A stretch of 64,000 nucleotides of DNA from contig NZ_ATVA01000011.1 in assembly GCF_000420485.1 (NCBI RefSeq), positions 535,855 through 599,854 on the forward strand, in the 5' to 3' direction. The notes below the pieces were generated by a model. It had not been told where the DNA came from. It ran no database searches and saw only the letters and a program-made list of their open reading frames with translations. The position numbers were made by a program, and so were the translations under genes. Origin of the DNA: Paucidesulfovibrio longus DSM 6739. Lineage in GTDB: Bacteria > Desulfobacterota > Desulfovibrionia > Desulfovibrionales > Desulfovibrionaceae. Positions 8,131-22,799 of the stretch are shown one piece after another (the stretch's first letter is position 1; each line of letters opens with the position of its first letter).

Positions 8131-8167
8131 AGCCTTGAAAGGTCGGAATGCATCGGCGGGAGGTAGC

Positions 8168-9403
8168 ATGAATCCAGAATACGATGCGGCGAAGGAACGC
8201 TCGGACTCGGTCGAGCAAGGCTGCGGCTGCATGACCGATATCGCCGGGACGCCGCAGGGCCTTTGCGGCCGCGATGTTCCCGCTGCCGATAATTCAGGTC
8301 GAAGCGAAGCCTGTTGAGGGCCGAAGACGGAGTCCGGGTTCGGACTCCACTCGCTGCCCGGATACGCCGTGCTTCCGTTCGTGCGGGAATTCGTCGAGAC
8401 GCCTGCCGGTCCCGTGCCGCGCGTGCGCACCCGTCCCGACTGGCGCGACAGGTTCGGCACCCTGCGGGCGCGGCTCGGTTTTCGGAACGACTACAAGATC
8501 GTTCCGGGCCTGTATTGCGTGGGCCGTCCCGGTCCAGACTCCCCCGTGCTGGTGACGTGCAACTACAAGCTGACCTTTGACGCGCTGCGCCGCGAGCTGG
8601 GCGATACCGATGCCTGGCTGCTGGCCCTGGACACCCACGGCGTCAACGTCTGGTGCGCCGCGGCCAAGGGCGTTCTGTCCACGGAGGAGGTCGCGCGCCG
8701 GGTCCGGGCCGCGAACCTGGCCGCGATCGTGTCGCACCGCGTCCTGACCCTGCCGCAGTTGGCGGCTCCGGGCGTCTCGGCGCACAAGCTCAAGGGGCTG
8801 TGCGGATTCTCCGTCCGTTTCGGGCCGATCCGTGCGGGCGATCTGCGCGCGTATCTGGAGCGGGGCGAGGCGGACGAGGCCATGCGCCGGGTGGAGTTCC
8901 CTTTGGCGGAGCGTCTGGTGCTCGCCCCGGTGGAGCTGACGCAGCGTCTGCATTGGCTGGTCCTGTTGTGCCTGCTCTGCTTCGCGCTCTCCGGCCTGGG
9001 GCCGGAAGGCTATTCCTTGTCTCTTGCGTTGCGGCGGGGCCTGCTGGCCTGCGCGGCCACGCTGACGGGGCTGCTCGCGGGCGTGCTCCTGGTGCCCGCG
9101 CTGCTGCCGCTGCTGCCGGGCCGTGCTTTTTCAGCCAAGGGAGCCGTGGCCGGCGGAGCGGCTTTCCTGCCGCTGGCCCTGGCTGCCGCGGGCTTTGCCG
9201 ATGTCTGGGAACTGGCGGCCCTGGGCTGCTGGACAGTGGGATTGGGTTCCTACCTGGGCATGAACTTCACCGGTTCCACCCCGTTCACTTCGCCGACAGG
9301 CGTGGAAAAGGAAATGCGCCGGGCCATGCCGCTTCAGGCCGCATGCCTTTTGGCGTCCTTGATCCTTTGGGTGGGAGCGCCGTTCTGGGGGAATGCGCTG
9401 TGA
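8168..9403 (+). CDS. hgcA: Mercury-methylation corrinoid protein HgcA, probable selenoprotein (in-frame TGA at codon 50)
   Basis: HgcA carries a methyl-corrinoid that transfers methyl to Hg(II). From residue 51 on, the frame is a clear HgcA: VTCNYKLTFD, the cap-helix motif NVWCAAAK with the cobalt-ligating Cys at residue 163 (canonical NVWCAAGK), SHRVLTLPQLAAPGV, and a C-terminal membrane region (about 260-410) with four or five helices. The ATG at 8168 has a GGGAGGT site, and the 49 codons after it share the HgcA frame but end in TGT TGA GGG. Reading the TGA (8315-8317) as selenocysteine gives 411 residues with Cys49-Sec50-Gly51 plus C19, C21 and C33. A SECIS-like hairpin follows (8329-8348). 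The internal GTG at 8369 has no ribosome site. hgcB overlaps the stop. A nonsense mutation is the alternative. Confidence 0.85.
8315..8348 (+). promoter_or_regulatory. In-frame UGA with putative bacterial SECIS hairpin
   Basis: The TGA at 8315-8317 is followed 11 bases later by a perfect 8-bp stem (8329-8336 pairing with 8341-8348) closed by the loop GGTT (8337-8340). Known bSECIS elements have a short stem, an apical loop with a G among its first two bases, and a UGA-to-loop distance of about 16-37 nt. Here the distance is 19 nt and both leading loop bases are G. The hairpin lies within coding sequence, as bSECIS elements do. Confidence 0.7.
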
Positions 9404-9678
9404 AGACGTTTCGTTATCTTGAGGGCGTGGTCACCTTGGCCCTGGATCCGGAGCGCTGCATCGGCTGCGGCGCGTGCGGGACGGTCTGCCCGCACGGCGT
9501 GTTGCGGCTGGAAGGCGAGCCGCGCCGGGCGCACATCGCGGATCGGGACGGCTGCATCGAATGCGGGGCCTGCGCCGTGAATTGCCCCACCTCCGCAGTG
9601 AGCGTCACGCCGGGCGTGGGCTGCGCCGCCCTCATTCTCGCTTCCTGGCTGGGGCGGCGCGCCAAGGGCTGCTGCTAG
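9400..9678 (+). CDS. hgcB: Mercury-methylation ferredoxin HgcB
   Basis: A 92-residue 2[4Fe-4S] ferredoxin that reduces the HgcA corrinoid. Seen: first cluster motif C20-x2-C23-x2-C26-x3-C30 P, second C52-I-E-C55-G-A-C58-x3-C62 P with the ECGAC sequence typical of HgcB, a lone Cys75 in GVGCA, and a terminal vicinal pair C91-C92. The lone Cys and terminal CC are hallmarks separating HgcB from ordinary ferredoxins and are thought to handle Hg(II). The GTG start at 9400 overlaps the hgcA stop (GTGA), so translation is coupled. Its stop overlaps that of the convergent MFS gene. Confidence 0.93.
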   Translation: MKTFRYLEGVVTLALDPERCIGCGACGTVCPHGVLRLEGEPRRAHIADRDGCIECGACAVNCPTSAVSVTPGVGCAALILASWLGRRAKGCC

Positions 9679-22722: not shown

Positions 22723-22799
22723 TGGTCGGGATGGCGCGATTTGAACGCGCGATCTCTGCGTCCCGAACGCAGCGCTCTACCAGGCTGAGCCACATCCCG
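22723..22799 (-). tRNA. tRNA-Pro (anticodon CGG)
   Basis: A 77-nt cloverleaf on the minus strand including an encoded CCA. Acceptor stem CGGGATG / CATCCCG, D arm with GGCTCAGCCTGGTAGAGC, anticodon stem CTGCG / CGCAG around the loop TTCGGGA (anticodon CGG), and a T arm with GTTCAAATC. Confidence 0.95.

Follow-up and report, generated by a model that had tools for sequence, protein, structure and literature searches.

Is the UGA codon inside the hgcA frame of Paucidesulfovibrio longus DSM 6739 a stop, or is it read as an amino acid, and if so, which one? The pair hgcAB is the known gene pair for microbial methylmercury production, and a sequence-only reading of this locus had proposed selenocysteine (Sec) at the codon. 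We consider the question in a window of 64,000 nucleotides (the whole stretch of DNA analyzed), on whose forward strand the hgcA and hgcB features described below lie, and in related genomes.

Results

The hgcA gene (8168..9403, 411 residues) begins with an ATG at 8168, behind the ribosome-binding site GGGAGGT (8158..8164). Its frame runs through a leader of 49 codons (8168..8314) ending in a TGT Cys codon, meets a TGA at 8315..8317, and then stays open until the TGA stop at 9401-9403; the coordinates and open frame described in the sequence-only reading were thus reproduced. With the in-frame TGA read through as the predicted Sec codon (residue 50), the protein scored 395.4 bits against the NCBIfam HgcA profile NF040863 (cut-off 275). 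It bears the marks of HgcA: NVWCAA at residues 160-165, five long predicted C-terminal helices, and hgcB adjoining. The first four of these residues (Asn-Val-Trp-Cys, 160-163; 8645..8656) form the cap-helix motif, whose Cys is the cobalt ligand in HgcA (PMC7305189), and the helices make up a C-terminal membrane domain in the AlphaFold2 model (residues 253-411; 8924..9400). The GTG start of hgcB (9400..9678, 92 residues) overlaps the hgcA stop; its product matches NF040864 at 111 bits (cut-off 99), has Cys, not Sec, in its GVGC motif, and ends in CC. A PDB sequence search with HgcA returned corrinoid iron-sulfur proteins only and no HgcA structure. Just 5' of hgcA, on the same strand, is a methyltransferase-domain gene (PF13649; 7177-8007); HgcAB has been reported to use SAM (PMC11588087).

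Around the UGA the predicted protein reads Ala-Cys-Sec-Gly-Pro (A-C-U-G-P, residues 48-52) and so would carry a Cys-Sec pair. AlphaFold2 gave pLDDT values below 50 at residues 1-6, 8-42, and 44-46, and in its model the folded domain opens with a strand at residue 72. The leader is therefore predicted to be a disordered arm, which would tether Cys49-Sec50 flexibly, some 20 residues away from the corrinoid domain. Third-position GC is 0.63 in the leader and 0.84 in the body, so codon bias backs the leader weakly. A GTG at 8369..8371, which is residue 68, opens the 344-residue form held in databases (P0002); as had been observed from the sequence, it lacks a ribosome-binding site, whereas a strong one precedes 8168. 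The calculated mass of the window HgcA is 43.7 kDa for the full form and 36.8 kDa for the short form.

Homologues are informative as to what belongs at this slot. Among 64 homologues picked from 239 listed and aligned with the window HgcA, 14 start after the slot and 50 reach it; Cys occupies residue 50 in 48 of these 50, and residue 49 in 49 of them. Proteins of the CCGP kind (e.g., P0005 and P0014) have the same arm and slot as the window protein, but with Cys where Sec is predicted here. At the level of genes, 83 (the window's included, duplicates removed) carry UGA at one slot, 105 to 120 codons before the cap helix, and 45 carry Cys. The residue before the UGA is mostly Cys (73 of 83; Gly 5, Thr 3, Leu 2), and the commonest triplets around it are C-U-G (54) and C-U-P (14). 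Four genes (L105, L110, L128, and L092) have a Cys directly after the UGA, as U-C, which suggests that the two residues of the pair can come in either order.

In a sample of the family of P. longus, UGA is the commoner state. Its 119 genomes included 33 with hgcA, and 24 of these have the codon, at the slot in 19 and nearer the start in 5; the remaining 9 have neither. One of the 19, L050, has C-UGA-GP at the slot and meets another in-frame UGA further on, within the membrane domain; it was taken as a decayed gene or a sequence error and excluded from the 83. The phylum sample outside the family comprised 103 loci (26 + 77, the higher-scoring matches), with UGA at the slot in 42 and 31 in the Cys set; two were unreadable at the slot, and the others had neither state or were assigned to neither set. 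Seven further UGA genes came from named records, including Desulfonatronovibrio, Desulfonatronospira, Dethiosulfatarculus, Clostridium tunisiense, and Hathewaya massiliensis. In the genus of genome G090, 22 of 36 genomes match the HgcA of strain ND132, 21 of them in full, and 20 of these 21 have UGA at the slot; in the remaining one (L189) the sequence begins inside the arm. We take this genus to be Pseudodesulfovibrio, since P0164 of Pseudodesulfovibrio cashew lies whole, after its first residue, within the frame of L031 from G090.

Several loci were set aside before counting. L100, L158, L160, and L166 have an ordinary upstream stop (a UGA just 5' of an ATG), and L010, the Pseudodesulfovibrio loci L181, L182, L185, and L186, and the Cys loci L011, L016, L018, and L020 are duplicates. 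Framing gave no usable frame for L027, L050, and L057, the last of which has no UGA at the slot. For L068, L079, L108, L134, L149, L159, and L163 the frame had been anchored to a wrong motif, and these loci are in neither set; when reread, none had a slot UGA.

The 154 HgcA domains placed on a quick tree comprised 83 with UGA, 42 with Cys, 5 with the early UGA, and 24 with neither. The UGA label requires 15 changes on it, and 4 of these changes are forced by well-supported branches, as judged by one support test on a tree with many open forks. The label is clustered, yet it has been swapped with Cys more than once. The sequence-only reading had proposed to look in homologues for a Cys or another UGA at this place: this is what 48 of the 50 covering homologues and the 83 genes have, but not the 24 rows of the tree with neither.

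Could the codon be read as Cys or Trp instead, or simply reflect a pseudogene or a sequencing error? Cys is, after all, the common residue at the slot. However, the window hgcA itself ends in UGA, and so do 36 of the 82 UGA genes for which the sequence extended to the end. The frame is otherwise unbroken, and the HgcA and HgcB profiles are matched. Nor would an error turn up at the same slot in 83 genes, across many families and with a covarying hairpin (see below), and we regard all of these explanations as extremely improbable. Other stop codons are scarce in this region: of 165 framed loci, only 4 have UAA or UAG in the 120 codons that precede the cap helix, and each of the three readable ones has a Met codon between the stop and the folded domain.

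In-frame UGAs also occur elsewhere. In one genus, five genomes (L052-L056) carry a UGA that lies 142-171 codons ahead of the cap helix and 12 codons after an ATG, in the context C-UGA-PP(K/R), and in each a SECIS-type hairpin with a G-led loop follows (-9.2 to -11.2 kcal/mol). A sixth member of this clade, L049, lacks a UGA at that place but has several CC pairs. This second place suggests that Sec can occupy different pairs of the arm; it was not found in the literature searched, where Haft and Gwadz 2023 was known through citing papers. HgcB is a partner with soft-metal ligands of its own, a GVG(C/U) motif and a Cys-pair tail. While the window protein has GVGC, C. tunisiense (L022) and H. 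massiliensis (L023) have in-frame UGAs in both HgcA (CU) and HgcB (GVGU). In a single lineage (L021 and L147, the same sequence), the HgcB tail has an in-frame UGA near the Cys of its relatives (APPDUSDGCG...SSCC), with a modest hairpin of -6.6 kcal/mol.

Decoding of UGA as Sec in bacteria calls for a SECIS element, for which the published rules give a loop of 3-9 nt, a stem of 4-16 bp, a G in the first two loop bases, and a distance of 16-37 nt from the UGA (PMC13188914). The window hairpin, GGAGTCCG-GGTT-CGGACTCC (8329..8348), fits these rules with a loop of 4 nt that opens with GG, a stem of 8 bp, and 19 nt between the UGA and the first loop G; it is the same perfect stem, loop, and spacing that the sequence-only reading had picked out. 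Its energy, -14.0 kcal/mol, was reached by 2 of 200 dinucleotide shuffles. Hairpins were then scored across the genes by the printed rules, with no bulges allowed and -6 kcal/mol or better counted as good. A good hairpin follows the UGA in 74 of the 83 genes (median best -10.2 kcal/mol), and 9 have none under this simple no-bulge rule. At the same position in Cys homologues the figure is 10 of 45 (median -2.5 kcal/mol), and in 1206 windows shifted further along the same genes it is 18% (median -2.1 kcal/mol). The sharpest control is the terminal UGAs of the UGA genes, where good hairpins number 2 of 36 (median 0.0), and the window's own terminal UGA gives -2.5 kcal/mol. The best unconstrained hairpin has a loop G in 65 of the first 67 UGA genes versus 18 of 45 Cys genes. 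Tested against their own shuffles, 44 of those 67 UGA genes reach 0.05 versus 2 of the 45 Cys genes.

The stem also covaries. In one register, 73% of pairs are standard in UGA genes and 31% in Cys genes, while other registers tried gave at most 52% in UGA genes. The covariation score was 10769, and the highest of 300 shuffles scored 5029. The shuffles leave relatedness in, so this score is not a probability; the register control retains relatedness. Pairs flip at individual positions (G-C in 31 and C-G in 28 genes at one; C-G in 47 and T-A in 19 at another). Within Pseudodesulfovibrio, paired swaps of whole codons keep the stem (GAC..GTC, GTC..GAC, GCC..GGC, GAT..ATC), and the encoded residues change from Asp..Val to Val..Asp, Ala..Gly, or Asp..Ile.

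The machinery for Sec, which the sequence-only reading had proposed to look for, is present. Profile scores in the P. longus genome are 368 bits for SelB, 596 for SelA, and 324 for SelD, each above its curated cut-off, and tRNA-Sec scores 86 (gathering score 47). Another hit for tRNA-Sec, scoring 47.1, probably represents an ordinary tRNA. The selD gene of this genome (G000:C18:686-1612) is interrupted by one in-frame TGA, and SelD is probably itself a selenoprotein. The family and phylum samples contain 66 UGA genomes (24 and 42), of which 64 have SelA (tables scanned by eye); the two without it are 67% and 84% complete. As SelA is above its cut-off in 355 of 395 phylum genomes, its presence is a necessary but weak test of Sec decoding.

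If the UGA were instead the true stop of a short leader peptide, HgcA would be made only from a later start, such as the GTG at 8369 or 8381. Databases do annotate forms that begin after the slot (P0002, P0003, P0006, P0164, P0171, and P0196), and a short form could fold, given that the first folded strand is at residue 72. The placing of ribosome-binding sites in the window argues against such a start, however. Among the 83 UGA genes, 82 have an in-frame start before the UGA, in 66 with an SD-like tetramer (17 lack an SD-like start there), and 16 have no start codon within 30 codons after it. Furthermore, in Cys homologues the same arm is part of a single uninterrupted frame, with residues CCG at the slot, and the hairpin that follows the slot UGA rarely follows terminal ones. 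We consider a leader peptide very unlikely. Instead, with the UGA recurring in dozens of relatives, mostly with the hairpin, the short database forms likely lack a natural selenium-bearing arm.

The best-studied example bears on the same point. P0196, the HgcA of Pseudodesulfovibrio mercurii ND132 (338 residues, 437 bits against NF040863), is the same enzyme as the window protein, with the cap-helix Cys, but is annotated without the arm. Several relatives have a GTG 22 codons past the UGA, and counted from it the cap-helix Cys is number 93; this Cys is residue 93 in P0196, and Cys93 is the published ND132 number (PMC11588087, PMC7305189). From this match in numbering we infer that the laboratory protein starts at the later codon, 22 codons past the slot, and is probably armless. 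A 37-kDa band has been reported for it (PMC11588087), to be compared with the 36.8 kDa calculated for the short form of the window HgcA and 43.7 kDa for the full one. The upstream DNA of ND132 itself was sought in 36 genomes of its genus and was not among them (best identity 69%). The ND132 HgcAB methylates mercury in E. coli lysates (PMC11588087), which lends the leader-peptide explanation some support, its HgcA being the presumed short form. It also suggests that the arm is dispensable for the chemistry itself, making a role in delivery, release, or affinity likelier than a catalytic one.

Both products might also be made, the UGA acting as a selenium-dependent switch that gives full HgcA when selenium is plentiful and a truncated protein or none when it is not. 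Sec decoding competes with termination in general, and 67 of the 83 genes have a start codon within 30 codons past the UGA. In the window, though, the short form has no ribosome-binding site, and an Rfam scan of the 64 kb at gathering thresholds found one tRNA only (22726-22799) and no known regulatory RNA. A switch therefore seems unlikely, if somewhat less so than a leader peptide.

Discussion

Sec is by far the best reading of the hgcA UGA, to judge from gene and genome sequences. The proposal that residue 50 is Sec is supported by the recurrent UGA, the covarying hairpin, the Cys homologues, and the machinery. It was not as novel as the sequence-only reading supposed in knowing of no report of Sec in HgcA: the selenoprotein table of a 2026 review, citing Haft and Gwadz 2023, lists HgcA (NF040863, CU) and HgcB (GVGU, NF040864) (PMC13188914), and a 2024 paper suggests that some HgcA homologues may be selenoproteins (PMC11588087). 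The window gene thus joins a known family as a new member, with the same Cys-Sec motif as the proteins of Haft and Gwadz 2023 and nothing essential different (PMC13188914). The HgcA row of that table cites references 61 and 63; we take PMC2398784 (PLoS Genet 2008) to be reference 61, and its main text, as available, does not contain “CO dehydrogenase”, “acetyl-CoA synthase”, or “gamma subunit”. Set against the 2023 paper through those citing it, possible additions from our analysis are the prevalence of UGA in a sample of this bacterial family, the early UGA place in five genomes, and the probably armless start of the ND132 protein.

What would the pair be for? Mercury is bound more tightly by selenolates than by thiolates. 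Our overall interpretation, which we hold to be very probable, is that SelB and tRNA-Sec read the codon-50 UGA as Sec, giving HgcA an N-terminal arm, predicted to be flexible, with a Cys-Sec pair that likely binds mercury. In such a mechanism, SelB and tRNA-Sec would decode the UGA with the help of the hairpin downstream, and the arm would offer a high-affinity thiolate-selenolate site for Hg(II). It might then hand Hg(II) to methyl-cobalamin beside the cap-helix Cys, or remove CH3Hg+. By analogy, capture of Hg(II) or removal of CH3Hg+ would be the most likely task of the pair; HgcB, with its paired Cys at the end and the task proposed for it, offers a likeness to this mercury role.

Alternatively, Cys and Sec could form a redox pair (a selenylsulfide) that maintains the cobalt, or the clusters of HgcB, in a reduced state and is not a mercury ligand. 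The vicinal Cys-Sec-Gly is like the tail of mammalian thioredoxin reductase, but the likeness of its GCUG to the window's ACUG is a resemblance of four letters only. An NCBIfam scan of HgcA found no flavin or thiol reductase family, and 10 of the 83 genes have a residue other than Cys before the UGA, though Cys follows it in four genes. HgcB, moreover, has been proposed as the electron supplier (PMC11588087). A redox role is doubtful on this evidence, but it is the least improbable of the alternatives considered here.

A mercury-binding Cys-Sec arm may have wider consequences. It is possible, although we put this forward tentatively and would not yet call it probable, that most HgcA proteins of the P. 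longus family natively contain Sec, in a mobile Cys-Sec arm that catches Hg(II) or releases methylmercury and along which the Sec can move, as the early UGA of one genus suggests. Laboratory HgcA would then have been defined without its arm, and the measured rates and selenium effects would be those of a shortened enzyme. If so, gene catalogues and laboratory constructs built from the short annotated form omit part of HgcA. And should most HgcA proteins of this family indeed have a metal-binding arm that contains selenium, mercury methylation could be influenced directly by the supply of selenium.
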